37,356 bases of DNA from Bacteroidales bacterium (GTDB lineage: Bacteria > Bacteroidota > Bacteroidia > Bacteroidales > FEN-979), in the NCBI GenBank assembly GCA_017882335.1, contig JADGPR010000025.1:1-37356 (forward strand). Direction: 5' to 3'. Both the position numbers and the translations under genes were made by a program. A model generated the notes under the pieces. The model was not told the DNA's origin and did not search any database. It was given only the letters and a program-made list of their open reading frames with translations. Position 1 is the stretch's first letter. Every line of letters starts with the position of its first letter. Below are positions 1,644 to 17,035 of the stretch, in pieces.

Positions 1644-1739
1644 TATAATAACTGGTGAGTAGTGAATAGTGAATGGTGAGTAAAAAAGTCAATATACTTT
1701 TAACTTTAAAAACTTTATGAACTTTACAAACTGTATTGT
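1644..1739. repeat. Composite intergenic repeat, inverted copy
   Basis: Read on the minus strand, the spacer carries TTTGTAAAG, TTCATAAAG and TTTTTAAAG nonamer units, then a linker ending in GACTTTTTTACTCACC, then ATTCACT/ACTCACC heptamers. This is the same order of modules as in the three oxidase-operon spacers, read on their plus strand. Relative to local transcription it is inverted compared with those three. Confidence 0.75.
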
Positions 1740-2186
1740 TCAATCCGGTTTCGGGGTATCGTTTCCTCCGTCGAGGACATATTTCCATTTCCCGTCGGGG
1801 AACCTTTTCCAGATGGTCACATAGGTTCCATATTCAACAGTATCTTTCCCGGTAGTCCGCAATTCCCATTTCCCGAAAGTATATCCCAGGTCGCCTGAAG
1901 CTTCAGCAACAATTGGAACCCAGCGAAGATGAATCTGTTTATCCGGAATGGTCTCAAGGTGTTTTGTGAGCTCGGCTTTCCCGAAAAGCGGAAGTTTCCC
2001 TTGCCTGAGCATGATCACGGAATCTGCGGCATAGGATAGAAATGCCTCTTTCATGCCTTTTTCAATGCTCATCAGGCAGAAATCCTGGTCGGTTTTCAGG
2101 AGCTCTTTTTCTAAGAAATTTTTATTCATCCCATGATGAACACAGGCTGAAAGGATCAGCAGGAGGAAGAATAATTTTTTAGTCAT
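1740..2186 (-). CDS. DUF4440 / SnoaL-like lipoprotein
   Basis: A 148-residue protein with a lipoprotein-type signal (LFFLLLILSAC, Cys at residue 15) followed by an NTF2-fold DUF4440-like domain. Recognisable elements are the 'FLSYAADSVIMLRQGKLP' strand, 'LGYTFGKWEL' and the terminal 'YVTIWKRFPDGKWKYVLDGG', a typical DUF4440 ending. The substrate is unknown; members of this fold are often ketosteroid-isomerase-like or purely binding. The ATG is one base after the stop of the large T9SS cargo gene, so the two are very probably translated from one mRNA, suggesting a linked extracytoplasmic role. Confidence 0.75.
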   Translation of the reverse strand: MTKKLFFLLLILSACVHHGMNKNFLEKELLKTDQDFCLMSIEKGMKEAFLSYAADSVIMLRQGKLPLFGKAELTKHLETIPDKQIHLRWVPIVAEASGDLGYTFGKWELRTTGKDTVEYGTYVTIWKRFPDGKWKYVLDGGNDTPKPD

Positions 2187-2187
2187 A

Positions 2188-5100
2188 TTATTCCAGGATT
2201 ACCTTTTTTACAGTCGTCGATTGATCGGACATTATCCTAAAAAAGTAGACGCCTTTGGCGAAACCGGATAAATTGAATTGTTTTTCAAGGTTTCCCATTT
2301 TTGCAGAAAAATGATCGGTAAATACCGTCTGTCCCTGAAGATTGAGAACAGACAGATCAATTCTGGAAGATGGATTTGAGATAAACACGTTTACAAAACC
2401 TGTGGTAGGATTAGGGTAAATCCTGATCTCTTCATGGTTATTTCCTGCATCCTGAATCCCGGTAGGTCCGGAGATGCTGATATTATCGAGAAAAAGATTG
2501 TTTCCACGGCGGTTATATGATTCGAAAAGGATTTTAATGTTCCGCTGTCCGGCCCATTGTGAAATATCCAATTGGTAGCAGTTCGTTCCATACGAAGACC
2601 CACACCAATCGTAATCGGATTGGGGAAAGAAGGAGGTTGACATTAGTGCATGGGTCGCAAAGACATTGGGGGTTCCATCGGGTCCTGCAGCGAGAAGCCG
2701 GGTCCAGGTGATTCCGCAATCGGAGGAGATCTTCACGATGAGGGAATCTTTTATTGTAGCTTGCTGGGCATAGGCATGCTTGAAACTCAAAGTCAGTGAG
2801 GTGTAAGAAGAAAAATTCAAGGGCGGACTGACGAGTTGATCGCGGCTGGATACGGTATAGTCATATAAATTCATCCATGCAGCAAGGTGCCCCGGAGTTG
2901 TACCAGCTACTGTGATTGTATCCCATGTTTTATTATTGTCTGAGTTCTGGATCGTCCAATGCTGGATATCAAAACCATTCTCAAATCCTTCTGTAAAGGG
3001 AAGAATGTAACCTCCGTAAGCGATGTAATCCAGTTTGGTCACCGAGTTATTTCCTGCACTGTTTGTAGCAGTCAGCCTGACCGTGTATAACCCGGGGGCG
3101 TCAAACTGTACGACCGGGTTCTGGCTGCTGGCATTGGTTCCCTGGAGGAAGGTAAAGGTAGCTGGTGCAAACTCCCAGTTCCATGTGGAGGGACAATAAT
3201 CACTTTCATCCTGGAAACGAACGATGTCACCTTCGCATAAAACCGTTTTATCGGCTGTGAAACCTACGGCCGGAGCCTGAGCATTATCTACCGCGATATA
3301 ATTGGTTTTTACAATGGAATCTGATCCGTTCCCATTCCATATTTTCATTTTAACGGTATACGTTCCGGGAGTGTTATAAACGATCCCCGAAGGGTTCTTG
3401 ACATTCGATGTGGAAGGAGTCCCTCCGTTGAATGTCCATAGCCAGTAAGTAGGAGGACCACTTGAAAGATCTGTGAAATTGACGCTGCAACCGGCAGTCA
3501 GGTTGGTTTTGTCGGCGGAGAAATCAGCCACCGGAGCTGCATGATACATGTCTGAACCCCACAGGCCTCTTCCATAAGTGCATCCCCTGATCACATCACT
3601 GGAAACACTGTCGTTATCATAATAAATTTCCACTTCCGTAATCTTGGCATTCGCAGGAAGCCCTATATTGAAAGCAACCCAAGCGTTCATGGAGGCATTT
3701 TTATAGTAAACCCCTGCATCTGTGCCGATGTAAAGTCCTTCCAGGTCATTTTTATAATAGGCGATCGAATTCACATGTACAGCAGGCAGGTTTAAGCTGA
3801 TATTGGTCCATGTGAGGCCTTTGTTTACAGATTTATAAACTGCATTCCCTGCGGTGATATAAACCGTGTTCGGTTCGGTCGGGTGTGAGGTGATGTCTGT
3901 AATAGCGGATGCTGAAGGCAGGGTGGAGGTCAGGTCGATCCAGGTGGGATTTACATCCATACAGTTGTCTGACCTGAATAAGCGGTTGTCTGAACGGGCA
4001 GCATAGAGAATATTCGTATTTGCAGGTGAATTTTCAACTACTGCCATGTTGTTGCTGTTGCTTCCGGCAAGGCTATTCGAAATTTTCTGCCAGGCAGGGT
4101 GGGGATTGGTTGACTTTATATTGTTGCTTCTCCAAATATTCTTGTACCCGATGAACATCGTGTTCGGGTCTGTAGCATGAAGGACAAACGGGGTTACCCA
4201 TCCTCCGCTCTCCGTGATCCCGTTCACACCGTTCCCGGCAATGTGATTCTCACTGTTATTATTATATCTCCGGTAAATATCTCCGTAATATATTGTGTAA
4301 TAGGTATAGGCATCATTGGCATAGTCAATAGTGCATTCCATCCCGTCGCCACCTCCGGTCGCAACCCAACCGGTTGGGGACAAGGTGTAGGTCCCGTTAT
4401 CCTGGAAGCCATTGATGACATGGTTTTTTGACAACTGGGCCTGTCCCAGTTTATAGATCTGGCCGATGGTAACTCCTGTTATCAGGAAGGTCCAGGTTGA
4501 ACCTCCGTTACCGGTAGACCAGACTCCCCCGTCATTCCCTGCATACAGTTTCCCATCGACCGGCGAAAAGCCGAGATAATGGCAATCTGCATGTACAGCC
4601 GGTACGCTGCATCCTCCATACCAGTGCGAATTGATGACCCAGGTTGATCCGCCATCCGTTGATTTCCATACATTCACACCGCCGACATAAATTACATTGG
4701 CATTCGTCGGGTCGGCAGCCAGGGCAAGGTCATACCAACCTTGTCCTCCTGTATCGGTGCCATCGCAACTCCAATCCATGATGTTAGGTGAATTGGAACG
4801 AAGGCTGAAAGAAAGCCCTGAATCGGTGGAACGGTATACTCCGCCATATCCATTATCACCAGCGGCATAAAGAATATAAACATAGGCAGGATTTGCTGCG
4901 CTGACGGCGATGATTGAACGTTGCCCGCCGCCGAGGCCTGAGGTGATAAGGGAAAATGTCACCCCATTATCTGTTGACCGGTAGAACTGGGAGCCGCCGG
5001 CAGCATAAACGATGGAATTATTCCCCGGTTTAAACTCAATGCTTTTGAAATTTCCTGATTTTGTCTGCGTCCAGTTGGTTCCCCCGTCAACAGTACGGTA

Positions 5101-5865
5101 GATTCCTCCGTTGGTGGCTGCAAGCAGGATAGATGCATTGGTAGGATCCTGAAGCATCCCGCCTACTGTTTTATCGCCCATCCCTGTTTTTGAGGGTGTC
5201 CAGGTCACTCCCCCGTCAATGCTTTTATAAACACCCAAACCGCTGGCATCTCCGGCATCGCGGTCCCCGGTTCCGATAAAGATTCTGTTTGGAGAAGAAT
5301 AATCCACGATAATGGCGGAAACACCCAGTGTGGGTAAGGTATCCGTATGCGTAACCCAGGTAAGACCACCATCGGATGACTGCCACATTCCTCCGGAAGG
5401 CGCTCCGATATAAATTTTATTCGGGTCGGTCGGATGATAACCAACGGTATTTACCCTACCCAAACCTTCATAACCTGCGGGCCCTGGTGAAGGGATGACA
5501 GCCGGTCCTAAAGAGATCCAGTTCCCGTTTGTGGAGTTGTTGCTCTTTAAAAATTGTTCATATGCTTGTTCTGCCAGTTCCGGTGCGGGACGGTCCCCGT
5601 TTGGAAGAATACGGCTCTGCATCATGTATTCCCAGCGTTTGAAAACTTTCCATCCGCAACCTTTCGTGATCTTTCGGTTTTGCCAATAGAGATTGAACGC
5701 TCTCTGAACTTTAAAGAAGTTCACTGTTGGATCCTGCATCATCTGCACCCAATAGGGGTATTGAGCAGTATCATTTGAAACATTCTGAACCGGGATATTT
5801 TTTTGAGATCTACCGGGAAGTACCAGCATGCATAACGAGAATGCAAGAAGAAAAAACTTTTTCAT
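2188..5865 (-). CDS. Large T9SS-exported protein with sortilin/BNR-type propeller, PKD and C-terminal sorting domain
   Basis: A 1225-residue secreted protein. Seen in order: a signal peptide (KKFFLLAFSLCMLVLPGRSQ); a roughly 100-residue N-terminal region with the YPYWVQMMQDP start I associate with this Bacteroidota family; many Asp-box/BNR-like blades (for example SSDGGLTWVT, SIDGGVTWTP, STDGGSTWVI) over about residues 120-780, as in VPS10/sortilin-like propellers; two PKD domains (ADFSADKTNLTAGCSVNF and VGFTADKTVLCEGDIVRF) near 800-970; a jelly-roll/MAM-like region (LPFTEGFENGF...) near 980-1130; and a type A sorting domain starting IYPNPTTGFVNVF and ending KKVILE. The protein is expected to cross the outer membrane through T9SS. 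The propeller suggests binding or glycan interaction, but no active site is evident. Confidence 0.88.
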   Translation of the reverse strand: MKKFFLLAFSLCMLVLPGRSQKNIPVQNVSNDTAQYPYWVQMMQDPTVNFFKVQRAFNLYWQNRKITKGCGWKVFKRWEYMMQSRILPNGDRPAPELAEQAYEQFLKSNNSTNGNWISLGPAVIPSPGPAGYEGLGRVNTVGYHPTDPNKIYIGAPSGGMWQSSDGGLTWVTHTDTLPTLGVSAIIVDYSSPNRIFIGTGDRDAGDASGLGVYKSIDGGVTWTPSKTGMGDKTVGGMLQDPTNASILLAATNGGIYRTVDGGTNWTQTKSGNFKSIEFKPGNNSIVYAAGGSQFYRSTDNGVTFSLITSGLGGGQRSIIAVSAANPAYVYILYAAGDNGYGGVYRSTDSGLSFSLRSNSPNIMDWSCDGTDTGGQGWYDLALAADPTNANVIYVGGVNVWKSTDGGSTWVINSHWYGGCSVPAVHADCHYLGFSPVDGKLYAGNDGGVWSTGNGGSTWTFLITGVTIGQIYKLGQAQLSKNHVINGFQDNGTYTLSPTGWVATGGGDGMECTIDYANDAYTYYTIYYGDIYRRYNNNSENHIAGNGVNGITESGGWVTPFVLHATDPNTMFIGYKNIWRSNNIKSTNPHPAWQKISNSLAGSNSNNMAVVENSPANTNILYAARSDNRLFRSDNCMDVNPTWIDLTSTLPSASAITDITSHPTEPNTVYITAGNAVYKSVNKGLTWTNISLNLPAVHVNSIAYYKNDLEGLYIGTDAGVYYKNASMNAWVAFNIGLPANAKITEVEIYYDNDSVSSDVIRGCTYGRGLWGSDMYHAAPVADFSADKTNLTAGCSVNFTDLSSGPPTYWLWTFNGGTPSTSNVKNPSGIVYNTPGTYTVKMKIWNGNGSDSIVKTNYIAVDNAQAPAVGFTADKTVLCEGDIVRFQDESDYCPSTWNWEFAPATFTFLQGTNASSQNPVVQFDAPGLYTVRLTATNSAGNNSVTKLDYIAYGGYILPFTEGFENGFDIQHWTIQNSDNNKTWDTITVAGTTPGHLAAWMNLYDYTVSSRDQLVSPPLNFSSYTSLTLSFKHAYAQQATIKDSLIVKISSDCGITWTRLLAAGPDGTPNVFATHALMSTSFFPQSDYDWCGSSYGTNCYQLDISQWAGQRNIKILFESYNRRGNNLFLDNISISGPTGIQDAGNNHEEIRIYPNPTTGFVNVFISNPSSRIDLSVLNLQGQTVFTDHFSAKMGNLEKQFNLSGFAKGVYFFRIMSDQSTTVKKVILE

Positions 5866-5895
5866 GAAGGAATAAGATTAGAGGTTTTCTGAAAA

Positions 5896-5903
5896 CAAAG
5901 GTA
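5896..5903 (-). promoter_or_regulatory. Bacteroidota -7 promoter box for the large T9SS gene
   Basis: The minus strand reads TACCTTTG, matching TAnnTTTG, 31 bases upstream of the ATG at 5865. No convincing -33 TTG lies at 17-23 bases, so only the -7 element is claimed. Confidence 0.5.
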
Positions 5904-5940
5904 GCGTTTTTTTCGGTTTAATGGCTTCATTCCCAACTTT

Positions 5941-6804
5941 TCAGGGAAAAATTTTCTCCAAAACTACCAGACTGAGAACAAGGAGCAGAAAAACATTCAT
6001 GGTAATGAACAGCAGCCTGTATCGTGGATTCTGTGCAAAATACAGTTGATAGAAGAAAAGGGCCAGGATCACCAGGTTCATTCCCAGGATTATCACTATT
6101 GATAAAAAGAACATCCAGAACCCGGAAAGTACCAGGAGGAGAGATGTTCCGGTGGCACCGATCATCCAGGCAAGGATGATATTCCGGAACTGGTATTTAT
6201 TGAAGATATCGGTCATTACAGGAAATCCTGCTAACCGGTATTCATCTCCGTATTTAAGCATCAATAGCCAGAAATGAGGAATTTGCCAGATAAACAGGAA
6301 AAATGCCAGCAACAGGACAGGCCGGTCGGCCAGCGAACCACCTGCAGCTGACCAGCCCATAAAAACAGGAATCACCCCCGACAATGCACCGGGAACAACG
6401 GCAAAGGCTGTCTTCTTTTTCAACCAGGTATAAAAACCATTGTACCAGAGGATATTCAATATTCCCAGGATAACACAGGTCCAATAGTACCCGGATGCAA
6501 GTATCCCAAATCCGGAAAACAGTAGAAGAAGTGCGATAAGGAAAGCTTGTTGTGAAGTGAGTTTGCCGGAAGGAAGCGGCCGGCCTTTTGTACGATCCAT
6601 CTTTGCATCCTGTTCTTTTTCCTGGATCTGGTTCAGGACGGATGCTCCGCAAGCAAGGAGAAAGATACCCGCAAGAGGGACAACCGATTTTACGGATACT
6701 TTCCCGGATGCTACCACCCATGCGGCAAATGCTGATAACGTCACAGTGAGTGAAATAATGATCCGGATCAATTCCGGAAAGATCCGGGTAAGGAAAGAGC
6801 GCAA
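5941..6804 (-). CDS. ctaB: Protoheme IX farnesyltransferase (heme O synthase)
   Basis: A UbiA-family polytopic membrane prenyltransferase (287 residues) that adds a farnesyl group to heme b to make heme O, precursor of the heme a used by the adjacent oxidase. Seen: the prenyl-diphosphate/Mg site region ASVLNQIQEKEQDAKMDRTK followed by RPLPSG, and the later block YTWLKKKTAFAVVPGALSGV. In the first motif the usual first Asp of NxxxDxxxD is Glu. About eight or nine hydrophobic segments are visible. The only start that fits the N-terminus is a TTG at 6802-6804, two bases after the stop of ctaC, which indicates translational coupling. No heme A synthase (ctaA) is present in the window. Confidence 0.92.
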   Translation of the reverse strand: MRSFLTRIFPELIRIIISLTVTLSAFAAWVVASGKVSVKSVVPLAGIFLLACGASVLNQIQEKEQDAKMDRTKGRPLPSGKLTSQQAFLIALLLLFSGFGILASGYYWTCVILGILNILWYNGFYTWLKKKTAFAVVPGALSGVIPVFMGWSAAGGSLADRPVLLLAFFLFIWQIPHFWLLMLKYGDEYRLAGFPVMTDIFNKYQFRNIILAWMIGATGTSLLLVLSGFWMFFLSIVIILGMNLVILALFFYQLYFAQNPRYRLLFITMNVFLLLVLSLVVLEKIFP

Positions 6805-6806
6805 AG

Positions 6807-7715
6807 TTATTTAAGGGTTTTCAGGTATTCAATGATCTTTTTTATCTCGTCATCCTTGATGATACCTTTATAGGATTTCATCACCCCCTTTGAAAAACCC
6901 ACCACGACATCTTTATCAGGTTCATAGATCGATGAAGTGATGTATTCATCATCAACCTTCACCTTTCTTTCATTCCCATTCGTTGTTACCGTTTCCGTTT
7001 TCCCATAGAGGCCCTTAAAAGTTACGCTCACAAGCCTGGAACCATCGAGTGAATGGCATCCGATGCAGGCATTCTTCTTCAGGATCACAAGACCTTCCGG
7101 CTCTGGGGATGCAACTTTCAATGCCTTCAGCCAGGTAAAAAACTCCCTGGGCGTGACAACCCTGACTTTTGTACCCATGTATGAATGGCGAACACCGCAA
7201 TAGGCTGTGCAAAAGATCTCATACTCACCGAGCTTTTGCGGTGTAAACCACATATAGTTATTTTTTCCCGGAACCACATCCTCTTTAACCCGGAAAGCCG
7301 GAATCGAGAAACCATGAATGACATCTTCGGAATGAAGGTTCAGCTTAACGGGGTTATTCAGCGGTAATACCAGGACATTTGCCACTTTTGAGCCGGCGTA
7401 TTCAAAACTATACTGCCACATCCTGGCGATCACTTTCACCTGCATGGCATTTTTCGGCACCCAGATCATAGGCTGAAAAGCAGCATATCCGTAGTAGAAA
7501 AGAAAAAGAACAATGATGATCGGGATCGTGATCCAGGTGATCTCAAGCGCTGTGCTGTCCTTTACCTGTATTGCTTTCGGATGCCTTTTCCTGTTGTACC
7601 GTACGACAAAGTATATCATCGTCGCGGTTATAAGCAATAAAAAGAAGAAACTGATCCCAAAAAGCAGTTTAAAAACCCAATCTACTCCTTCAACAAAATT
7701 TGATGCGCCGTACAT
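6807..7715 (-). CDS. ctaC: Cytochrome c oxidase subunit II with fused cytochrome c (caa3-type)
   Basis: 302 residues. Seen: two N-terminal transmembrane helices (about 15-40 and 58-82), a cupredoxin CuA domain, and a C-terminal monoheme cytochrome c with CIGCH at 217-221 and a probable axial Met in GVMKSYKG. CuA ligands visible are His134 (DVIHGFSIP), Cys169, Cys173, His177 and Met180. The residue that is normally Glu between the two cysteines (CxExC) is Ala171 here (CTAYCGVRH). No lipobox or cleavable signal is evident. The fused cytochrome accepts electrons directly and defines a caa3 enzyme. It is fourth of the oxidase subunit genes (order I-III-IV-II) and is followed at 2 bp by ctaB. Confidence 0.95.
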   Translation of the reverse strand: MYGASNFVEGVDWVFKLLFGISFFFLLLITATMIYFVVRYNRKRHPKAIQVKDSTALEITWITIPIIIVLFLFYYGYAAFQPMIWVPKNAMQVKVIARMWQYSFEYAGSKVANVLVLPLNNPVKLNLHSEDVIHGFSIPAFRVKEDVVPGKNNYMWFTPQKLGEYEIFCTAYCGVRHSYMGTKVRVVTPREFFTWLKALKVASPEPEGLVILKKNACIGCHSLDGSRLVSVTFKGLYGKTETVTTNGNERKVKVDDEYITSSIYEPDKDVVVGFSKGVMKSYKGIIKDDEIKKIIEYLKTLK

Positions 7716-7868
7716 ACAATATTAATTACGAATTACGAATTACGAATTATGAATTATGAATTATGAATTGAGTTTATAAAGTTTGTAAAGTTCTTAAAGT
7801 TATAAAGTACCATCGACATTTTTACTCACCAGTTCACCAGTTCACCACTTCACCACTTCACCACTTAT
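7716..7868. repeat. Composite intergenic repeat A (ctaF-ctaC spacer)
   Basis: On the plus strand: about six AATTACG/AATTATG heptamers (7725-7768), then nonamers TTTATAAAG, TTTGTAAAG, TTCTTAAAG and TTATAAAG, the linker TACCATCGACATTTTTA, then octamers of the form CTCACCAG/TTCACCAC up to the ctaF stop. The same three-array order occurs in spacers B and C. The arrays make the gap unusually long for a bacterial operon. Confidence 0.9.
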
Positions 7869-8153
7869 TTATCGGAAGATATAATCTGAGAATGTAAGGA
7901 TAATAACGGAGACGTAAATTGCGAGTACCATGATCACGAGTATTTTGAGCAGAATATATTCTACCTTAAGATGCATGAAATAGGTCATTACGATCCCGGC
8001 TTTGGTGGAAGCCAACACCAGCGCTATCAATGCCGTAAATGCGGTAAGATCCAGCCAGGGGACCAGGATGGTGAAGGTAGTCAGCACCAGCAACCCAATC
8101 AGTACTTTTGCATATACCGGATACTCTGTTATGTGTTTTACTTCTGTGGTCAT
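7869..8153 (-). CDS. ctaF: Cytochrome c oxidase subunit IV, prokaryotic type
   Basis: A 94-residue membrane protein of the prokaryotic COX4 family. Three hydrophobic helices are visible, with the family-typical block ALVLASTKAGIVMTYFMHLK in the second. It is a small accessory subunit of caa3-type oxidases without redox centres. It lies between subunit III and subunit II genes and is separated from both by the composite repeats, in the same transcription direction. The ATG is at 8151-8153. Confidence 0.88.
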   Translation of the reverse strand: MTTEVKHITEYPVYAKVLIGLLVLTTFTILVPWLDLTAFTALIALVLASTKAGIVMTYFMHLKVEYILLKILVIMVLAIYVSVIILTFSDYIFR

Positions 8154-8321
8154 TTTATTCTACAATTTACGAATTACGAATTACGATTGAATTTTTTGAT
8201 TTACGATTTACGAATTGAGTTTATAAAGTTTATAAAGTTATAAAGTACCATTGACATTTTTACTCACTAATTCACCAGTTCACCACTTCACTAGTTTTTT
8301 ATTTCGCTATTTCGCTATTTT
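8154..8321. repeat. Composite intergenic repeat B (ctaE-ctaF spacer)
   Basis: It has the same architecture as spacer A but a more eroded heptamer part: CGAATTA units and two variant units at 8165-8216, then TTTATAAAG nonamers, the linker TACCATTGACATTTTTA, then CTCACTAA/TTCACCAG octamers, and finally a short TTTCGCTA repeat just before the ctaE stop. The linker differs from that of A by a single base. Confidence 0.9.
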
Positions 8322-8927
8322 CTATGTTACTAAATAAAGTAATGGAAACAAAAATATCCATATCAGGTCTACCAGGTGCCAGTACAATCCGCCATTTTCA
8401 AGCAGCACATAATGTTCATCGTTGATCAGTCCCATTCTGACCTTGGTCAATGCGATAACAAGAATTACGGCTCCGATCACAAGGTGAAGCATATGCAATC
8501 CGGTCATGAAAAAATAAAGGCTGAAAAAAAGAATATACCCATGTTTCAGCGACTGCATCAAGTCCGTGCCGGGGTACAAAGTCATCGAAATTTTATGTCC
8601 CCATTCAAAATATTTATCCACCAGAAAGATGACCGCACACAGTAGGGTTATACACAACAGGATGGTAGCCATTCGTTTGTCCTTTTTCTGGACAGCCGTG
8701 ATCGACATGGCGACCGTCATACTGCTGATTAGCAGAACCACCGTATTCAATGCCCCGATAAATGTGTTGAGTTGCAGGGAAGCCTGGTGAAAATCTGCTG
8801 TATACCTGTGACGCATCACTGCATAAACCAGGAATAATCCGCCGAAAAGCAAGATCTCAGTAAAGATAAATACCCACATTCCAAGCTTTGCGCCAACATC
8901 GTCCCGTTGCATTTCTATATGATCCAT
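8322..8927 (-). CDS. ctaE: Cytochrome c oxidase subunit III
   Basis: A 201-residue, five-helix subunit III of the short type common with caa3 oxidases. It stabilises subunit I and has no redox centre. Seen: GMWVFIFTEILLFGGLF at the first helix, DKYFEWGHKI, FFMTGLHMLHLVIGAVILV, and the diagnostic C-terminal run ENGGLYWHLVDLIWIFLFP. The ATG is at 8925-8927. It lies downstream of ctaD across composite spacer C. Confidence 0.95.
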   Translation of the reverse strand: MDHIEMQRDDVGAKLGMWVFIFTEILLFGGLFLVYAVMRHRYTADFHQASLQLNTFIGALNTVVLLISSMTVAMSITAVQKKDKRMATILLCITLLCAVIFLVDKYFEWGHKISMTLYPGTDLMQSLKHGYILFFSLYFFMTGLHMLHLVIGAVILVIALTKVRMGLINDEHYVLLENGGLYWHLVDLIWIFLFPLLYLVT

Positions 8928-9102
8928 GACAACTAATTACGAATTATGAATTATGAATTATGAATTGAGTTTATAAAGTTTGTAAAGTTTTTAAAGTTCA
9001 TAAAGTTATAAAGTACTATAGCTCTTTTTACTCACCAATTCACCAGTTCACCAGTTTTTTAACTCGCCAACTCGCCAACTCACCAGTTCGCCAACTCACC
9101 AG
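8928..9102. repeat. Composite intergenic repeat C (ctaD-ctaE spacer)
   Basis: On the plus strand: AATTACG then three AATTATG-type units, nonamers TTTATAAAG, TTTGTAAAG, TTTTTAAAG, TTCATAAAG and TTATAAAG, a diverged linker ending CTTTTTACTCACC, and a long octamer array (9031-9102) that alternates CTCACCAR and CTCGCCAA and touches the ctaD stop codon. It is the longest of the three copies. Confidence 0.9.
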
Positions 9103-10707
9103 CTAATCATAGTCATACGGATTATCCGGCACCGCAGGCGGAGTGGCGAAATTCTCCATCGGCGGGGGAGAAGGCAATTGCCATTCAAAGGTCTTTCCAC
9201 CCCAGGGGTTGGACGTAGCTTTTGCTCCGTTCTTCCGGAAGAGGTTCACGATAAGAATGATAAACCCGATCCCCAGGATATAACCTCCGATAGTAGATAT
9301 CTGTTGTGCCCATGTAAATTGAGGAAGATAATCAAAATACCTCCTGGGCATTCCCTCGATCCCGATGATAAATTGCGGAAAATACAGTAGGTTGAACCCG
9401 ATGAACAGAAATCCCCATGCAACATTCGCAACACGGATATTATACATCCTTCCGAACATCTTGGGATACCAGTAATGAATCGCTCCCAGGAAAGCAAAGC
9501 CGACACCTCCAAAAATGATATAATGGAAATGAGCAACAACAAAGGAAGTATCATGAACCTGGATATCGGTCGCCAGTGCACCTTGAATAAGGCCTGTCAA
9601 TCCTCCGATGGAAAATAAAAAGATAAAGGCAATGGCATACAGCAGCGGGGGTTTCAGGTCGATCGAGCCTTTATACATGGTGGCCACCCAATTGAAGACC
9701 TTGATTGCGCTGGGAACGGCTACCAGGAAAGTGAGTAGTGAAAATGTCCAGATGGCTTCTTTACTCATTCCTGAGGTGAACATATGATGTCCCCAGACAA
9801 AATAGCCTACCCCTGCAATGGCCAGGCTGGAAATCGCGATGGCTTTGTATCCGTAAATCTGCTTCTGACAGAAGGTCGGGATAATTTCCGTGATGACACC
9901 CATGGCCGGCAGGATCATGATATACACTGCAGGATGTGAGTAGATCCAGAACAGGTGCTGGTACAACACGGGGTCGCCACCCAGTGCAGGATCAAAGAAG
10001 CCGATATGGAACATTCTCTCGGCGATGATCATCAGTAAGGTAATACCAATCACGGGAGTAGCAAGGACCTGGATCCATGCAGTGGCATAGATCGCCCAAG
10101 GCAACAAGGGCATTTTGAAGAAACCCATCCCGGGGGTACGTAACCGGTGGATCGTCACAATAAAATTAATCCCTGTAAGGATGGAAGAAAAACCGAGGAT
10201 GAAGGCTCCGCTCACTGCTGCTATAACGTTGGTGTGTGTTTGAGTGCTGTAAGGCGCATAGAATGTCCAGCCGGTATCCGGTGGGCCGTTACCGGTAAAC
10301 TGGGAAATGACTACAACTGCTGCACCCAGGATATACAGGTACCAGGCAAACAGGTTGAGTCGCGGAAATGCGACATCGTTGGCGCCGATCATGATCGGCA
10401 TGACAAAGTTGCCGAAGACGACGGACAGTCCGGGGATCACGATCAGGAAGATCATAATAAGTCCGTGCAGGGTAAAGATGGCATTGTAGGTTTGCGGGCC
10501 GTAGAATTGTTGTCCTGGTTTAAAAAGTTCGGTTCGCATGGTCTCACCGAGGATCCCTCCCACGATAAAGAAAACCATGATAGACCAAAGGTAGAGCAGG
10601 CCGATCCTCTTATGATCGGTAGTAGTAAGCCATGCCATGATTCCTTTCCGTTTCCCGGTATCGATCAGATAACTCGGTTCTTCATGAAGATTTGTGTTCC
10701 CTGTCAT
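9103..10707 (-). CDS. ctaD: Cytochrome c oxidase subunit I, heme-copper type A2
   Basis: 534 residues with about twelve transmembrane helices: the catalytic subunit that reduces O2 to water and pumps protons. Heme and copper ligands seen: His81 (HGLIMIF), His258 in YSHPAVY, His307-His308 (HHMFTSGM) and His393/His395 (VAHFHY). The D-channel Asp is present in [10 protein letters not shown] (Asp111). The helix VI Glu of classic A1 enzymes is Ala260, with Tyr256-Ser257 just before the His. This YSHPxVY signature marks type A2, known from caa3 oxidases of Thermus and Rhodothermus. It is encoded right after SCO1 (16-bp gap) and before subunit III. Confidence 0.97.
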
Positions 10708-10723
10708 GGATAGAATTTCTTAA

Positions 10724-11536
10724 CTATGAATTAGATGGATTTGAGGTTTCTTTTGATCTTGACTTTTTCCGTGATGAACGTACCAGTAAAGAGATAAAAA
10801 AGATCACGGCAATAAAAATGATGATGGTGGCGCTCACTTTGGTTATAGCCAGGCTATAACGCCTGCCGGCCGGGTCATAAGTGAAGCAAAAATCCAGTAT
10901 ACGGTTGATGGTTGGCCGTGAAATCCCTTTCTGGGCTTCGATCAGCGCCATTTTAACATCGAAAGGAAGGTACGATGTTCCATAAAGATAACGGGTGATC
11001 TTGCCTTCCGGGCTCAGGATGATGATGCAGGTCGGATGGATGAAATCGTTTCCTGCATGAATAAATTTATACCCTACTGCATTGGTGAGTGCATAAATAT
11101 TCGCACTATCCCCAGTCAGGTAGTTCCAATATTGTCCGTGGGGCCTGCTTTTATTATCAAGAAAGTTGTTCTTCTTGTCTAAGGCTTTATCCGGTGTATC
11201 CAGCGCATTGAAACTGACCGTTACAATCTGGTAATCTTTGCCAAGTTGCATATCCACTTTTTTTACGACATTCGAAACGCCGGCCAGCAATTGCGGGCAG
11301 ATTCCCGGACAATCAAAATAGATCAAGGCCAGGATGGTCGGGCGTTTGATCAGCTCCTTCAGGTTTACTGGTTTGTTGTTTTCATCCCTGAATGACAAGC
11401 CATCAGGAACGGTTTTGTCGAGGTGTTCAACAATCCCAACTTCAACCGTATCTGCAGGGTCTTGTGCCCGGACATGAAACCCTGCAAACCCCTGCATCCA
11501 GGCTATGATAATCAGAAGTGCAATTTTGTATTTCAT
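10724..11536 (-). CDS. SCO1/SenC family copper chaperone
   Basis: About 270 residues with a thioredoxin fold. It delivers copper to the CuA site of subunit II. Seen: a signal/anchor (KYKIALLIIIAWMQGFAGF), the copper-binding CxxxC in FDCPGICPQLL, the distal His in DFIHPTCIIILSP, and a C-terminal transmembrane helix (ATIIIFIAVIFFISLLV). The ATG at 11534-11536 is preferred since it starts the signal sequence. A GTG at 11569 overlapping the stop of the upstream gene by 4 bases is possible. SCO directly before the oxidase genes matches the gene order reported for alternative complex III-caa3 clusters. Confidence 0.92.
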   Translation of the reverse strand: MKYKIALLIIIAWMQGFAGFHVRAQDPADTVEVGIVEHLDKTVPDGLSFRDENNKPVNLKELIKRPTILALIYFDCPGICPQLLAGVSNVVKKVDMQLGKDYQIVTVSFNALDTPDKALDKKNNFLDNKSRPHGQYWNYLTGDSANIYALTNAVGYKFIHAGNDFIHPTCIIILSPEGKITRYLYGTSYLPFDVKMALIEAQKGISRPTINRILDFCFTYDPAGRRYSLAITKVSATIIIFIAVIFFISLLVRSSRKKSRSKETSNPSNS

Positions 11537-11565
11537 AATATTTCGTATTGAATCAAAAGGGTATC

Positions 11566-11979
11566 TCACGCTTGTGAAACAGGCTTGTCATCTTTGTACA
11601 TCCCCGCGATCATCAATGCTCCACCCATCAGGGAAGCATCTTTAAGGAGTTCGATCAATGCCAGGGTCGAGAATTTCGTATGCATCGACAGGATGGTTAC
11701 CTCTGTTGGATCAAAAAGCGCCGGAACATGGATGGTAAGGATGAAGATAAACAGCAAAAGAGCTAACAACAAACACGACAATTGAATGTACTTCTTTGCA
11801 ATGATGGAAATACAGGCGGCAATGAGTGCCAACCCGGTAATGATAATGGTATATCCGCCTCCGGGTATGAATGTGCTGATCATTCCAAGATAATAACTAT
11901 TCATGAGAAAATGGTTCAGTCCAAGTATGCCGAAAGGCAGGGCGAACAGGATTCTTCCGATGGTTGTAAGATATTTCAT
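11566..11979 (-). CDS. DoxX-like four-helix membrane protein
   Basis: A 137-residue protein with four predicted transmembrane helices and the DoxX-type opening GRILFALPFGILGLNHFL. The DoxX family includes the small subunit of thiosulfate:quinone oxidoreductase, but most members have no known function. The position inside a respiratory operon between the cytochrome c and SCO genes suggests a role in quinone interaction or oxidase assembly; this is inference. Gaps are short on the upstream side (12 bases to the cytochrome c stop). Confidence 0.7.
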   Translation of the reverse strand: MKYLTTIGRILFALPFGILGLNHFLMNSYYLGMISTFIPGGGYTIIITGLALIAACISIIAKKYIQLSCLLLALLLFIFILTIHVPALFDPTEVTILSMHTKFSTLALIELLKDASLMGGALMIAGMYKDDKPVSQA

Positions 11980-11991
11980 TTTTTGATTCGT

Positions 11992-12900
11992 TTAAATTGT
12001 CTGTTTCAATTTCTTTAATGAGATCAGGATATAAAAGATGAATCCCCACACGGTGACCAGTGACAGTGAGAAAGTGAGGATAAGCCATACAGGCGCTTTT
12101 GAACGAACCGACCACATGGCACGGGCATCGGTAAGACTTTTCACCATAACCGGTTTGCCGATGGAAAGCCTGGCTTTGACCTGATTTGCATATAGCAACC
12201 CGGTTTCATCTTTGACCCTTGCCATAATTTCCAGGATGCCGGATGGTCCGCCGGGCAAGTCGGAAGGGAAGTCGAACAAAACAAGCCCCCTGGCATTTGT
12301 CGTTTTCGGGTTGCCCACCGTGAGCGTACCAAAATAGCGTTTCACGTTCAGTTGAATATCGATGCCTTTTGCAGGAATTTCTGATTTGTCCTGCTTGATC
12401 TCTTTGCAAAGAACATAGAGTTTCTTATGCCGGTAATTGCAATACATCCGGAGTTTGACGTTTTTACTCCCGCTTCCTGTCTTTACAATGGGTGTTGGTT
12501 GCACATAGTTGGCATTAAAACTCCGGATATAGGAAATCACCTGCCAGCGTTCCTCTTCTGAAAGGATATTTCCGAACTGAGGCATGGGCGCTTTTCCGGT
12601 GGTGACCCTGTAGAACATCTCTCCGTCGGTTTGTTGCTGAAAAACAACAGAAGCGGGATCTCCCGGTGGAGGATTGATCTTGGCCCAGTTCTGTTTTCCC
12701 GGATCTCCATGGCAGGATTTGCAGTTTTTCTGGAATACATTCTCCCCGGTTTTTACCGTCTCAGGCGTGAATTGAAATGGGCACACCTTTTCTTTTACTT
12801 CCTTAGGAACCACCCAAACCGGTGCGGCTGATTGAGCAAATGCACTAATCCTTAAGACAATAAAAACGAAAAAGAAGATCCCCAGAAATTTCTTCATCAT
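11992..12900 (-). CDS. Membrane-anchored monoheme cytochrome c with C-terminal beta domain
   Basis: About 302 residues. Seen: a signal peptide (MKKFLGIFFFVFIVLRISAFA), a class I cytochrome c domain with CKSCH at 60-64 and probable axial Met106 (APMPQFG), an Ig-like or transthyretin-like region at about 120-260 (KNVKLRMYCNYRHKK..., RGLVLFDFPSDLPGG), and a C-terminal transmembrane helix (PVWLILTFSLSLVTVWGFIFYIL). The most upstream possible start is a TTG at 12909; the double ATG at 12895-12900 is preferred because it leads straight into the signal peptide. It most likely carries electrons from the Fe-S/NrfD module to the cytochrome c domain of subunit II, in the place ActE fills in alternative complex III. 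Confidence 0.82.
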   Translation of the reverse strand: MMKKFLGIFFFVFIVLRISAFAQSAAPVWVVPKEVKEKVCPFQFTPETVKTGENVFQKNCKSCHGDPGKQNWAKINPPPGDPASVVFQQQTDGEMFYRVTTGKAPMPQFGNILSEEERWQVISYIRSFNANYVQPTPIVKTGSGSKNVKLRMYCNYRHKKLYVLCKEIKQDKSEIPAKGIDIQLNVKRYFGTLTVGNPKTTNARGLVLFDFPSDLPGGPSGILEIMARVKDETGLLYANQVKARLSIGKPVMVKSLTDARAMWSVRSKAPVWLILTFSLSLVTVWGFIFYILISLKKLKQTI

Positions 12901-12927
12901 ATTAAACAATGTTTACTCCTTTGTTCA

Positions 12928-12990
12928 ATTCATAACTCATATCTCACCTCTCACATCTCACTTTTAATTCTGAATTCCTGCATTCCTGCA
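12928..12990. repeat. Short degenerate tandem repeats in NrfD-cytochrome spacer
   Basis: Heptamer-like units ATAACTC, ATATCTC, ACCTCTC, ACATCTC are followed by octamers GAATTCC/TGCATTCC. This is another example of the spacer-filling repeat class, with unit sequence different from spacers A-C. Confidence 0.6.
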
Positions 12991-12993
12991 TTT

Positions 12994-14322
12994 TTAATTC
13001 TTCTCCTCCACCAGTCCCCGTTCTACTGCTGTCTCCCTGATAGGGACCACCGGGAAAAATTTCGATAGCAGTGTTATAATGATCAGCGCCATAAAAAATG
13101 ATGACAAGGTGATCGCAATTTCTGTCAGGGTCGGGGTATATACTTTAAAATTGTAAGGCACATATTGAATGGGCAGGTAAGGGTGTTCCTGGGCGGGGAT
13201 CACAATGATATAACGCTTGAACCAGGAACCTATGAAAATGGCCAGTGAAATGATCAGCATTGGGAGTGGAGTCCTCATCTTCTGGAAAAGCATCAGGATG
13301 ATTGGGAGTATCAGTCCGCCGATCTGCACTGCCCAGAACATGAGCGCAAACCGTCCACCAAAAAGATCGTGCAGGTTGATGGCTTCTGCAGTCTTGAGCT
13401 TATATGCAGGGACAAGAAATTCGTTGATGTTAAAATAAAGGTATACCAGCATCACCATGACAAGAAGTTTCCCCATGTTGTTAAAATGCTGGTTGGTGAT
13501 GTAGTTGTGAAGTTTGTAATTTTTCTGGAAGAAATACATGGCGATGATCACGGCTGATCCGCCGGAGACGAAAGCCCCGGTGACGAAATAGGGTCCAAAA
13601 AGGGTGCTGTCCCAACCTGCGCGGAAACTCATGGCGAAGAGCCAGGAAGTAACGGTATGGATGGCCAGTGCACATGGGATAATGAGGATGAGAAGAATCC
13701 TGACACAACGCCGGATGATATGGTTTTTCTCTGGCGTATCCGTCCAGTTCAGCGACAGGACCTGGTAGGTTTTTTTTACCCATCCGGGCAGATGGTCGGT
13801 TTTTTTATGAACCCAGGCGATATCGGAGATCAGGGTAAGGAACAACAAAAGGGCGCTCAGAACAAAATAGGTTGTAACCACGGTGACATCCCAGAGAATT
13901 GGCGACTGAAACCTGCCATAGATAAATACATATTCAAGGCGGTCGGGACGCCCCATGTCCATGATAATGACCAATCCTGCGATGGCTGCAAAGGCTACTG
14001 CAATGATCTCTGCGATCCGGGCAACTGGCGTGATCCATTTGATCCCGATCAACCCGAGCACACCGCTGATCAGCATTCCGATCAGGCTGGTTGCGACAAA
14101 GAACACGAAGTTGGAGAGGTACATCCCCCAGGAGACGTAATCGCGGATCCCGGCAACACCCAGGCCGAAGCGAAGCTGAAGGGTATAGGCGTAAAGGCAA
14201 ATGCTCAGGCCGATCAGGAGAAAACCCATCCATATCTTGAATCCGCGTGTGATCCGGATATGAAACGTGAGGTCTTCCGTTATTTTGTTGAGCGCAGCGT
14301 TGTTTTCATCCATGTCGTTCAT
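12994..14322 (-). CDS. NrfD/PsrC-family quinol-interacting membrane subunit (ActC/ActF-like)
   Basis: 442 residues with about ten transmembrane helices. The NrfD family oxidises menaquinol or ubiquinol at the membrane and passes electrons to a partner Fe-S protein. Seen: RDYVSWGMYLSNFVFFVATS near the N-terminus, IMDMGRPDRLEYVF, and the block IHTVTSWLFAMSFRAGWDST that continues into a GPYFVTGAF segment and is typical of the ActC/DsrP/HmeB branch. The ATG overlaps the stop of the Fe-S gene by four bases (ATGA), so the two are translationally coupled and almost certainly form one complex. There is no second NrfD gene (ActF equivalent) in the operon. Confidence 0.9.
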   Translation of the reverse strand: MNDMDENNAALNKITEDLTFHIRITRGFKIWMGFLLIGLSICLYAYTLQLRFGLGVAGIRDYVSWGMYLSNFVFFVATSLIGMLISGVLGLIGIKWITPVARIAEIIAVAFAAIAGLVIIMDMGRPDRLEYVFIYGRFQSPILWDVTVVTTYFVLSALLLFLTLISDIAWVHKKTDHLPGWVKKTYQVLSLNWTDTPEKNHIIRRCVRILLILIIPCALAIHTVTSWLFAMSFRAGWDSTLFGPYFVTGAFVSGGSAVIIAMYFFQKNYKLHNYITNQHFNNMGKLLVMVMLVYLYFNINEFLVPAYKLKTAEAINLHDLFGGRFALMFWAVQIGGLILPIILMLFQKMRTPLPMLIISLAIFIGSWFKRYIIVIPAQEHPYLPIQYVPYNFKVYTPTLTEIAITLSSFFMALIIITLLSKFFPVVPIRETAVERGLVEEKN

Positions 14323-15317
14323 ATCTTTTTCGGTTCTGCGTCCTTTGATGGTTCAAAAGGGAATAACCTGTTTTTGGGTGGAAGGTAATAAACCCTGGGT
14401 TTGGTGCCGAGTTCAGGTAGCAGCTGGTATGCTCCGTTTTCGCTGAGCAATGTGCTGAGCCTGACGCTTTCTTTGGTTGTGCCATTGGTCACTGTATCTT
14501 CATTTTCATCCCCGAAATAATAGACTCCGTTCGGACAGGCGGAGACACAGTAGGGGAGTTTCCCTTCCCGCAGCCGGTCTGAACTCATCAGGCATTTGGT
14601 GATGGTGCCGATGCGCTGCGGAATGTTGAGTTCAATATTATAGGGAAGGTCTTTATCCTGTTCTTCGAACTTTGGTTTGCTCCAGTTCAGCATCCGTGCG
14701 GAATACGGACAAGCGGCGATGCAGAAACGGCACCCGATGCAACGTTCATTATCGATCAGCACGGGGCCATCGGGTCGTTTAAACGTGGCATCAACCGGGC
14801 ATACTGCAACGCAGGGTGGGTTGTCGCAATGCTGACAGGGTTTGGGCATATGGAACGCAGGAGTATGCGGATTCTCCTGCATCTGCAAGGTATTGATATG
14901 AAACTGGTCCGGGCGCAGGTGATGGGCAGCCTGGCAGGCAGCGATACACTGGCGGGCATTGCGGCATCTTGAAAGATCGATCACCCAGATCCAGCGCCGG
15001 CCGGGAATCCCTTCCCTGCCTCTTAATTGCATCTGTTGTTCAGGTGATTTCTCCAGGGCTTTCAACTCCAGCGAATCTACCTCCACAAGCTTGTTGTCCT
15101 GCGTCAGCAGTACACTTTTCTTTCCGCCTTTCGTCTTGGATTTTTCAAAAATGTCTCCGGAAAAAAGTGCGGCAGCACCGGCAGCGATTCCGGCTCCGAT
15201 CAAACCAATGTTACGTAAGAATTTTCGCCGGGAAGCCTGTTTTGAATTTTCCGGCTCAGAATTTTCCTGATTATGCTGATTAGTTTGGTTTTGTTCATTC
15301 TTCGGATGTTCTTCCAT
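14319..15317 (-). CDS. TAT-exported four-cluster Fe-S protein (ActB Fe-S part / NrfC / DsrO-like)
   Basis: 332 residues. Seen: a twin-arginine signal (SRRKFLRNIGLIGAG at 29-43), then four ferredoxin motifs. Motif I has Cys118, Cys124, Cys128 but Ala121 in the second ligand position. Motif II is complete (Cys161, 164, 169, 173), as is motif III (Cys193, 196, 199, 203). Motif IV has Cys242, Cys257, Cys261 but Ser245 in the second position. The domain is therefore the usual 16-Cys fold with two ligands missing. It is first gene of the operon, overlaps NrfD by four bases, and has no molybdopterin subunit beside it. The likely role is electron transfer from quinol via the NrfD subunit to cytochrome c. 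Confidence 0.9.
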   Translation of the reverse strand: MEEHPKNEQNQTNQHNQENSEPENSKQASRRKFLRNIGLIGAGIAAGAAALFSGDIFEKSKTKGGKKSVLLTQDNKLVEVDSLELKALEKSPEQQMQLRGREGIPGRRWIWVIDLSRCRNARQCIAACQAAHHLRPDQFHINTLQMQENPHTPAFHMPKPCQHCDNPPCVAVCPVDATFKRPDGPVLIDNERCIGCRFCIAACPYSARMLNWSKPKFEEQDKDLPYNIELNIPQRIGTITKCLMSSDRLREGKLPYCVSACPNGVYYFGDENEDTVTNGTTKESVRLSTLLSENGAYQLLPELGTKPRVYYLPPKNRLFPFEPSKDAEPKKI

Positions 15318-15475: not shown

Positions 15476-17035
15476 TTATTGGATAACAACTTTTTTATTG
15501 ATAGTGCCATTGTCCAATATAGCTTTCAGGTTATAGATACCGGTGGTCAGTCCGGAAGTATTTATAGTAATCGTTTTTGCATTGACCGTCTGGTTGATCA
15601 CAACCTGGCCAGTTGCATTGTAAACCTGGATCTCTTTAATGTTAGTGGTAGCCTGAATTGTCATAACATCTTTTACCGGATTCGGGAAAACAGATACGGC
15701 ATTTGCATTGAGTTCATTGATACCAACACCGCCAACATGGATATAACCGGTTTTGACCAGTGTGTTTGTGCCAAAAGCGCTGGTAATAGCTAAGGTTACA
15801 TTTTTATTGCCGGATGTATTGTAAGTAATGGCAGGTGGGGTTTGCAATGTCGAAGTTGGCGGGGTACCACCCTGGAATGTCCATAAGAATGTGGTGGGAT
15901 TACCAATTGATTCGTTTGTAAATGTAGCGGTCCAGCCCAATGCGATGAGAGTATCCGGAGTTGAGAATTTTGCAGTAGGAGCCTGCAGGGAATCTCCTGC
16001 ATAGATGAACATACCACCGGTAGATTTTTTTGCAGCAGCGGAAGATCCTGCCCAACCAGTCGCGATATCAAGCCATGCAGTAGCCTGGTAATCGCCTCCT
16101 GCAGTTATTACCCACCAGTTCTGTCCTCCGTCGTAACTGAAAGATACCCCTTGATCTGTACTTGCGATACCGGCAGAACCCACATAAGTGCTGGTACCGG
16201 GAATATGAATAATGTATCGGGCATACATGCTACCACCAACAGCAAGATCTTGCCAAGTAGCACCGCCATCGGATGTAATACTAAGCGCAGGCTCGATACC
16301 TAGATTGAGGTAAGAACGATAGGCAATACCATGCAGTGCATCTGTAAATTCCGGGGCTACCACCTCAGCGTTTCCAAAGGAGGTCAACGCAGCAGTCCAG
16401 TGGAGTCCTTTATCGATGGAGTGGTATACCCTTCCTTCGTTGGTGCCAAACCACACATTGTCGCCAAAGGCACAATAATCTCCGGTTATTCCATATTCAC
16501 CACTTGATGAAGGAGCAGGAATGTTACCTGTGACCACACGGGTCCATGTTTCCCCTCCGTCAGAGGTGGTATAAATTTCGAAGTATCCCCCGAGCGGGTC
16601 GCCTATGGCAAAACCATCAAGGTTATTAAAGAAATGCATGGCGTCGGCAAAAGAACCTGATCCATAAGCTGTCCCTTTTTTAACCCAGGTTGTGCCACCA
16701 TTAGTGGTTTTATAAAGACCCTGGGTAGTCCCTGTGTTCATCACTGCCCAACAGGTATTCTCATCAATAGCAAATAATTGAGATAAACCGGTTCCGGCAT
16801 TGAATGTTCCTAATGTCCATGTCAAACCACCATCTGTTGATTTGGTATACGTATCAATGATAAGGCCTGTGGCACCAATACCATAAGCCCACAAGGCATT
16901 AGTGTTATTCATACCAACAGAAATCTGTCCAACACCCACGCCGACAGCAAGATGGGAATTGACTGCAGTCCATTGAGCTAAAGTGGCTAACGAGAAAGCC
17001 AGGATAGCCATTAAAGAAAGTAATGTCTTTTTCAT
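15476..17035 (-). CDS. T9SS-exported BNR/YCF48-like propeller protein with PKD domain (paralog 1)
   Basis: 519 residues. Seen: signal peptide (KKTLLSLMAILAFSLATLAQ), a propeller of Asp-box blades over about 25-340 (STDGGLTWTLG, TTNGGTTWVKKG, TSDGGETWTRV, SIDKGLHWTAA, TSDGGATWQDL, SYDGGQNWWVI), one PKD domain at about 350-435 (AKFSTPDTLIALGWTATF, FLWTFQGGTPP), and a type A sorting domain (VFPNPVKDVMTIQ...NKKVVIQ). The propeller resembles the YCF48/BNR family, which usually mediates binding. Its neighbour upstream is a close paralog with the same layout. The function is unknown; surface or extracellular location is expected. Confidence 0.85.
   Translation of the reverse strand: MKKTLLSLMAILAFSLATLAQWTAVNSHLAVGVGVGQISVGMNNTNALWAYGIGATGLIIDTYTKSTDGGLTWTLGTFNAGTGLSQLFAIDENTCWAVMNTGTTQGLYKTTNGGTTWVKKGTAYGSGSFADAMHFFNNLDGFAIGDPLGGYFEIYTTSDGGETWTRVVTGNIPAPSSSGEYGITGDYCAFGDNVWFGTNEGRVYHSIDKGLHWTAALTSFGNAEVVAPEFTDALHGIAYRSYLNLGIEPALSITSDGGATWQDLAVGGSMYARYIIHIPGTSTYVGSAGIASTDQGVSFSYDGGQNWWVITAGGDYQATAWLDIATGWAGSSAAAKKSTGGMFIYAGDSLQAPTAKFSTPDTLIALGWTATFTNESIGNPTTFLWTFQGGTPPTSTLQTPPAITYNTSGNKNVTLAITSAFGTNTLVKTGYIHVGGVGINELNANAVSVFPNPVKDVMTIQATTNIKEIQVYNATGQVVINQTVNAKTITINTSGLTTGIYNLKAILDNGTINKKVVIQ

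Follow-up and report, generated by a model that had tools for sequence, protein, structure and literature searches.

How electrons pass from quinol to a terminal oxidase is the question raised by a contig of a Bacteroidales bacterium (JADGPR010000025.1), on which genes for an iron–sulfur (Fe-S) protein, an NrfD-family membrane protein and a cytochrome c lead into an oxidase operon. The window analysed here is this whole contig (C58; 37,356 nucleotides), part of a 3.13 Mb genome with a completeness of 96.7%. An earlier note on the sequence read the string as a pared-down alternative complex III and suggested a minimal quinol:cytochrome c oxidoreductase. Our analysis separates the two parts of this proposal. 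The ancestry is not borne out. The function is the likeliest one, and we hold with good confidence that the three genes (the trio) encode a quinol:cytochrome c oxidoreductase that takes over the function of complex III in compact form, because electron-accepting partners (oxidases and nitrate reductases) recur beside them, the quinol site is largely kept, and neither cytochrome b nor ActD was found in the genome.

The string forms a single run on the minus strand with intergenic gaps of −4 to 175 bases (Table 1). The gene order is that of the earlier note: Fe-S protein, NrfD, cytochrome c, a DoxX-like protein and SCO, followed by COX1, COX3, subunit IV, COX2 and CtaB. These labels are backed by Pfam and NCBIfam models (Fer4, NrfD, cytochrome c, SCO1-SenC, COX1, COX3, caa3 subunit IV, COX2 and UbiA). 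No open reading frame (ORF) resembling ActA, ActB1, ActD or ActF is seen in the window stretch by ORF list and Pfam, so the reported absence of the pentaheme ActA, the molybdopterin-like part of ActB, ActD and ActF holds for the window.

Table 1. Genes of the oxidase string in the window, in order of transcription, with the evidence for each label
Feature	Position	Strand	Evidence
Four-motif Fe-S subunit of twin-arginine translocation (TAT) type, 332 amino acids	14319-15317	-	Twin-arginine RRKFL; Pfam Fer4
NrfD-family quinol subunit (predicted)	12994-14322	-	Pfam NrfD 115.7 bits; ten helices by simple hydropathy count
Cytochrome c with beta-sandwich domain and C-terminal membrane helix	11992-12909	-	Pfam; AlphaFold2 model; Foldseek
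Small helical membrane protein, DoxX-like, optional	11566-11979	-	Weak DoxX support; helical
SCO/SenC-like protein, likely copper chaperone of the oxidase	10724-11569	-	Pfam SCO1-SenC 33.3 bits
Heme-copper oxidase subunit I (COX1)	9103-10707	-	Pfam COX1 ~495 bits; TIGR02891 663 bits (cut-off of 670.75 narrowly missed)
Oxidase subunit III (COX3)	8322-8927	-	Pfam COX3 72.3 bits
Oxidase subunit IV	7869-8153	-	TIGR02229, caa(3)-type subunit IV, above cut-off
Oxidase subunit II (COX2), CuA motif and fused heme c	6807-7715	-	TIGR02866 above cut-off
Heme O synthase-like CtaB	5941-6804	-	Pfam UbiA 142 bits; best NCBIfam match cyoE_ctaB 182.7 bits, below the 210.3 cut-off

The genome-wide check for act and bc1 genes proposed in the earlier note was run as searches for ActD and cytochrome b, and neither was found. 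Cytochrome b (PF00033) has no match in the window's genome, and the model matched 8 of 14 controls. ActD (PF11821) also has none; this model matched 1 of 14 controls (Thermus). The string holds no multiheme ORF that could be ActA, for which no whole-genome search was made. The survey was extended to the genomes of 48 of 80 related loci (49 genomes in all; the completeness figure refers to the window's genome alone). Cytochrome b occurs in 15, ActD in six, and neither in 31. All 31 are among the 44 genomes, the window's included, in which the trio is linked to COX1. The genome of a cultured relative, Geofilum rubicundum (L151), gave neither; Marinilabilia rubra (L144) has the string and also a cytochrome b. 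The route from quinol to oxidase is unexplained in these 31 genomes, since neither cytochrome b nor ActD was found there, and the trio would fill this gap. Eight of the 15 cytochrome b places were opened. In seven, three ORFs share one direction: one the size of cytochrome b, one the size of Rieske and one with eight hemes. The eighth (L167) has such ORFs in a different order. Pfam, run on L161 alone, confirms cytochrome b and Rieske there. In L161 (5200-9308), the genes for cytochrome b and Rieske form a set with an eight-heme ORF that carries TPR repeats, and similar ORFs occur in L162-L168. Because of these gene sets, another quinol complex may exist in some trio-bearing genomes.

The gene string recurs widely, as the search in other genomes proposed in the earlier note makes clear. 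The 80 loci were kept from a scan of genome contigs with at least 572 confirmed matches. COX1 lies downstream in 62 of them, cbb3-type genes without COX1 in 5, and neither in 13, six of which have less than 2.5 kb of downstream sequence. Fe-S, NrfD, cytochrome and COX1 genes occur together in 59 of the 80, and 49 of these 59 also have COX3, COX2 and CtaB. A class-wide search with protein P0002 covered 295 genomes, with at most five candidates scored per genome. At 347 bits or more it gave 33 matches, spread over 27 genomes; six matches (two genomes) scored 252–281 bits and the rest 176 bits or less; all nine low-scoring loci that were opened (L072-L080) carry act genes. A search of 295 genomes of the order gave matches at E ≤ 1e-120 in 63. 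The order-wide set comprises all 66 matches beyond that of the window. Three of them, two from further members of the window's genus and one from its family (L186-L188), all have SCO and oxidase genes next. The Fe-S gene is upstream in 60 of 64 order-wide loci with room for it, and an adjacent cytochrome is present in 59 of 63. At least 5 kb of downstream sequence is available at 53 loci, 25 of which have COX1 downstream: by script label, 23 have COX genes, 7 cbb3 genes, 2 both, 1 NapA, 1 an EB_dh-type gene, and 19 are unlabelled. Since the genomes are related and the 80-locus and order-wide sets overlap in part, these counts are not independent events. The string nevertheless recurs in dozens of genomes, far above chance, though the genomes are related.

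The partners are varied. The trio is followed by cbb3-type genes and then by SCO and COX1 in three loci (L117, L133 and L137). Curated NCBIfam models score above cut-off for CcoNO and CcoG in L132, for CcoNO in L137 and for NapA and NrfH in L139; the ATPase preceding CcoNO is above cut-off as P-type and below it as copper type. Pfam adds FixH, a cytochrome c552 (NrfA type) and NapB. CcoNO-type domains are also present in L223. Among the 19 unlabelled loci, two have a two-heme ORF with a NarG-like ORF, and in one of these (L245) a nitrate reductase beta domain is encoded by the ORF that follows. The trio thus stands ahead of a two-heme ORF and NarG/NarH-like genes in L245 (2049-11768) and L248 (1250-11777). 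A third unlabelled locus, L250, has an act cluster. The locus L115, flagged as cbb3 by the script through a 16-heme protein, was not counted as such. We also rejected the idea that NarGH upstream of a lone NrfD in L145 marks a replacement of NarI, as a NarI ORF is present; this NrfD has no adjacent Fe-S or cytochrome partner and belongs to the same assembly as L097. In Marinifilum flexuosum (L125, 5451-8140), the trio and its cbb3 genes are immediately preceded by bd oxidase genes, which are on the other strand.

The SCO gene sits within the string, and the genome encodes a multiheme protein with a NapC/NirT domain (L008). Both would fit a trio that is an accessory of the oxidase, with the main electron route running through NapC/NrfH-type cytochromes. 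We consider this extremely unlikely, since the trio is also found ahead of NapA, in a setting that shows neither SCO nor COX, and since it keeps its redox motifs and most of the quinol-site residues described below.

The best solved relatives of the window NrfD are chain C of alternative complex III structures, and the predicted quinol site can be compared with that of ActC. Passages in PMC8076601 and PMC5928083 name His139, Ser164, Asp169 and Asp253 as the ActC quinol-site positions. They align to Asp122, Ser140, Asp145 and Leu228 of the window protein, with the positions placed through surrounding conserved motifs, as the alignment does not contain the R. marinus sequence. Two of the four positions are thus identical, the first holds the Asp known from other members of the NrfD family, and one is lost, so that missing quinol-site residues, which the earlier note had named as a point of refutation, are found in part. 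Asp at the first position is listed for QrcD, DsrP and HybB in PMC8076601. Asp122 is present in 78 of 79 aligned NrfD sequences (one gap), and Ser140 and Asp145 in 79 of 79. The window's genome has six NrfD matches, five of them besides that of the window, on other contigs and accompanied by Fe-S or cytochrome genes of their own. The residue at position 122 in these paralogues is Cys or Glu on C8 and C85 and Asp on C22. An anchored protein with an immunoglobulin-like (Ig-like) domain goes with five of the six; a Fe-S gene is seen with four, and the locus of the fifth (C22) is truncated where its contig ends. The C8 copy is a 740-residue fusion with the Ig-like part. Four more loci with NrfD and an anchored Ig-like protein thus lie elsewhere in the genome (L007 8792-17698, L008 5440-12056, L009 6253-9813); in one of the four NrfD is fused to the Ig-like part, and another has seven-heme and six-heme ORFs and a b561-type protein.

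The Fe-S subunit is of TAT type, as the earlier note had it, and matches Fer4. The twin-arginine pattern occurs in all 75 Fe-S ORFs of the clade. Motifs II and III are complete in 75 of 75. The second Cys is missing from motif I in 74 of 75 and from motif IV in 74 of 75, with one ORF unmatched each time. In the sister families with the same Fe-S, NrfD and Ig-like plan, the motif IV Cys is kept in 35 of 35. Four-motif Fe-S proteins have a usual pairing of cysteines between motifs. By this pairing, the two membrane-near clusters should be [4Fe-4S], and the two distal clusters should each be one ligand short.

At its N-terminus the cytochrome has a signal-like helix; a cytochrome c domain and a beta-sandwich domain follow, and another helix closes the C-terminus. 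The listed start is TTG, and ATG at codon 4 or 5 is equally likely. The earlier note had described a membrane-anchored monoheme cytochrome; the cytochrome c domain and the C-terminal helix stand, and the beta-sandwich domain has to be added. No Pfam Ig family matched the window cytochrome, and 'Ig-like' is our own name for the beta-sandwich. The AlphaFold2 model has a mean pLDDT (predicted local distance difference test) of 89.9 and a pTM (predicted template modelling score) of 0.61. For the cytochrome part, the top Foldseek match is chain E of Roseiflexus alternative complex III (E 4.0e-05). Chains of cd1 nitrite reductase and c552 come next, and chain E from Rhodothermus stands at rank 8. 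In this model, the likeness to chain E is a resemblance and not an assignment. In L135 and L146, NrfD and the cytochrome are fused in frame (761 residues). Other fusions join the cytochrome with SCO in L093 (558 residues) and NrfD with the Ig-like part in L069. These fusions support a physical association of the parts, although L135 and L146 are closely related to each other.

Several observations weigh against the trio as a quinol:cytochrome c oxidoreductase that stands in for complex III. The ActC Asp253 equivalent is Leu228 in all 79 aligned NrfD sequences. The Fe-S wire may be incomplete, because two motifs are each short of one Cys. A sequence-profile search ranks c552 cytochromes above ActE for the cytochrome domain. 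Cytochrome b and/or ActD matches occur in 18 of the 49 genomes, and ActD in all four searchable genomes with a cbb3-linked trio, so the trio is not always the only complex III candidate. One order-wide locus (L250) sits ahead of an act cluster, and 16 of the 53 have no recognised partner within reach (L243, which yielded no NrfD ORF, is counted among them). These 16 loci without a recognised acceptor would also suit the reverse direction, in which the cytochrome would take electrons from a periplasmic donor and NrfD would pass them to quinone, as Qrc does. NrfD modules work in both directions according to a passage in PMC6303296, and Asp122 agrees with the residue listed for QrcD, DsrP and HybB (PMC8076601) rather than with the ActC His. 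The recurring recognised partners, however, are oxidases and nitrate reductases. The recurring upstream neighbour in the window's nearer relatives is an ORF of ~830-870 residues that carries DUF5686 in the three of three tested and is no dehydrogenase (other neighbours were not searched for donors). We therefore regard the reverse direction as very unlikely.

The trees bear on the relation to alternative complex III. The NrfD tree has 80 rows, 27 of them in the trio clade; a second NrfD tree leaves out the ActF, E. coli and C51 rows. The Fe-S tree has 55 of 57 rows, with E. coli HybA and the C51 protein left out. Rows of the E group were assigned to it by their scores. In the NrfD tree, support is 98/100 for the trio clade, 94/94 for its join with other Ig-type families and 100/99 for ActC apart. 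The deep joins are unsure, because long branches meet there. In the Fe-S tree, support is 100/100 for the trio clade, 97/98 for the wider family and 100/100 for ActB2 apart. The earlier note had named placement of both proteins in a known group as a point of refutation; neither falls among the DsrO/P, NrfC/D, HybB or ActB/C rows (QrcC/D were compared by score only and are not in the trees). With the rows of the second NrfD tree, a constraint uniting the trio NrfD clade with ActC is rejected (approximately unbiased test, p-AU 0.0161), a value to be taken with care as the group was named after seeing the tree. We also set aside a role beside a known reductase whose catalytic subunit is encoded elsewhere, since the Dsr, Qrc and Nrf models all scored below their cut-offs.

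The trio could still be a degenerate alternative complex III that has lost ActA, ActB1, ActD and ActF. The NrfD relationship to chain C and the cytochrome fold resembling chain E would agree with this, and act clusters likewise run into COX genes (L073, L074, L076 and L079). We consider it unlikely nonetheless. The trio clade groups with paralogues from outside alternative complex III in both trees, and a grouping with ActC is rejected. Thr replaces the second Cys of motif III in the six ActB rows listed; the trio clade retains this Cys and lacks the second Cys of motifs I and IV. The two systems also stand side by side in L250, where the trio lies directly ahead of the act cluster (1458-13236). 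Descent as a pared-down alternative complex III is thus disfavoured by both the separate clade and the different missing cysteines.

For the quinol:cytochrome c oxidoreductase, we propose the following path. Menaquinol, known as the quinol of the phylum, would bind on the periplasmic side of NrfD near Asp122, Ser140 and Asp145. The Fe-S subunit would carry the electrons on to heme c in the anchored cytochrome, and the cytochrome would pass them to the terminal enzyme encoded next to it. The recipient here would be the heme c/CuA subunit II of the oxidase, and in relatives the cbb3 oxidase or the Nap system. The assembly into one complex, the direction of flow, the redox partners and the cluster types are all inferred. 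The trio may also form a supercomplex with the oxidase, as the earlier note suggested. With moderate confidence, we go further and suggest a third complex III architecture beside cytochrome bc and alternative complex III. It would be a three-subunit plug-in before an A-type oxidase, cbb3, Nap and possibly Nar. Electrons would pass along the Fe-S wire, and the two distal clusters, poor in ligands, would be tuned to supply heme c.

The oxidase itself is less certain in its heme than in its subunits. The motif YSHPAVY, which we take to be of A2 type, is present in 58 of 59 COX1 ORFs, and COX2 ORFs have the CuA-type motif and CXXCH in 53 of 53. The caa3 label of the earlier note is doubtful, because the heme A synthase CtaA (PF02628) is above cut-off in none of the 49 trio-bearing genomes (one weak match at 20 bits; 7 of 14 controls matched). 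In two Bacteroidia with alternative complex III (L074 and L076), this model does detect CtaA next to the oxidase genes. An A-type subunit I is present in 44 of the 49 CtaA-negative genomes. Because CtaB is present beside the trio, a heme O oxidase is the simplest guess, and the enzyme may use heme O. PF00115 has three matches in the window's genome, one strong (that of the window, 496 bits) and two at 188–218 bits in ORFs of ~750 residues (C85 26384-27718 and C112 828-2171), which are perhaps quinol nitric oxide reductases. A bd oxidase occurs in 42 of the 49 surveyed genomes, that of the window included; in Geofilum rubicundum its genes were found in pieces.

The protein called DoxX-like in the earlier note is a small helical membrane protein. 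The DoxX label is weak: the window protein has no Pfam match at E 0.1, and Pfam DoxX is found in 9 of 29 members of the set (best E 7.8e-06). The protein also appears optional, being detected in 29 of the 59 loci with Fe-S, NrfD, cytochrome and COX1. Its predicted fold has no match at E 0.001. For these two reasons, the patchy detection and the fold without a match, the idea that it replaces the missing CtaA was dropped. The operon is flanked on both sides by PKD-domain proteins with a Por secretion tail (2188-5865 and 15476-17035).

A literature search in titles and abstract openings of open-licence papers found no description of this module. It probably does the complex III job in many Bacteroidales, often where neither known version was found. 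It also bears on alternative complex III: according to a passage of PMC8552683, the catalytic mechanism of that complex is unknown, and what its Fe-S clusters do is unclear. Because a complex without ActA would presumably have to route electrons along its Fe-S clusters, the trio makes this question testable and could show whether a Fe-S wire can work.

By the genes present and their model scores, the trio would fall outside alternative complex III, bc1, DsrMKJOP, Qrc and NrfABCD, although it would work like alternative complex III or NrfBCD. With alternative complex III (ActABCDEF of Rhodothermus marinus and Flavobacterium johnsoniae) it shares a four-motif Fe-S protein, an NrfD-type subunit with a quinol site (a predicted one in the trio), a monoheme cytochrome c, adjoining oxidase genes and likely the reaction, which for the trio is our inference. 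It differs in having no ActA, ActB1, ActD or ActF genes in the string, a single NrfD and a separate clade. The Fe-S protein (332 residues) has no B1 domain, and the motif III Cys that is absent from the three-Cys motif III of ActB is present in 75 of 75. The trio NrfD is homologous to ActC yet outside the ActC clade. The trio cytochrome has the beta-sandwich and C-terminal helix, while ActE is proposed to be a lipoprotein (a passage in PMC5928083).

E. coli NrfBCD also combines Fe-S, NrfD and cytochrome c subunits and is annotated as a putative menaquinol-cytochrome c reductase. NrfB, however, is pentaheme, and NrfBCD adjoins nitrite reductase. NrfC and NrfD of E. coli are distant from the trio on long outside branches of the trees, and the NrfC model scores 98.8 bits against a cut-off of 377.6. 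DsrJOP of DsrMKJOP has a Fe-S protein, an NrfD-type subunit and a small cytochrome c, DsrJ being triheme according to PMC6303296. Chlorobial DsrP and DsrO form their own clades, and the models remain under cut-off (DsrO, the best NCBIfam match of the Fe-S protein, 172.8 against 200 bits; DsrP 113.7 against 350). Qrc (QrcABCD) shares the Fe-S and NrfD-type subunits and the Asp at the quinone position of transmembrane helix 2. According to a passage in PMC6303296, it runs opposite to the flow proposed for the trio and has extra multiheme and molybdopterin-like subunits. Its models are far under cut-off (QrcC 109.2 against 400 bits, QrcD 51.2 against 570).

The sister groups are unnamed clusters of Bacteroidia with Fe-S, NrfD and an anchored (transmembrane) Ig-like protein (Fe-S/NrfD/Ig-TM). 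Their neighbours are EB_dh (ethylbenzene-dehydrogenase-like) and/or DUF5777 beta-barrel proteins, Pfam-verified in L047, L050, L052 and L065; a literature search for DUF5777 returned no paper. These clusters follow the same plan of Fe-S, NrfD, anchored Ig-like protein and monoheme cytochrome c but, unlike the trio, usually keep the cytochrome and the Ig-like part as separate genes in the loci listed.

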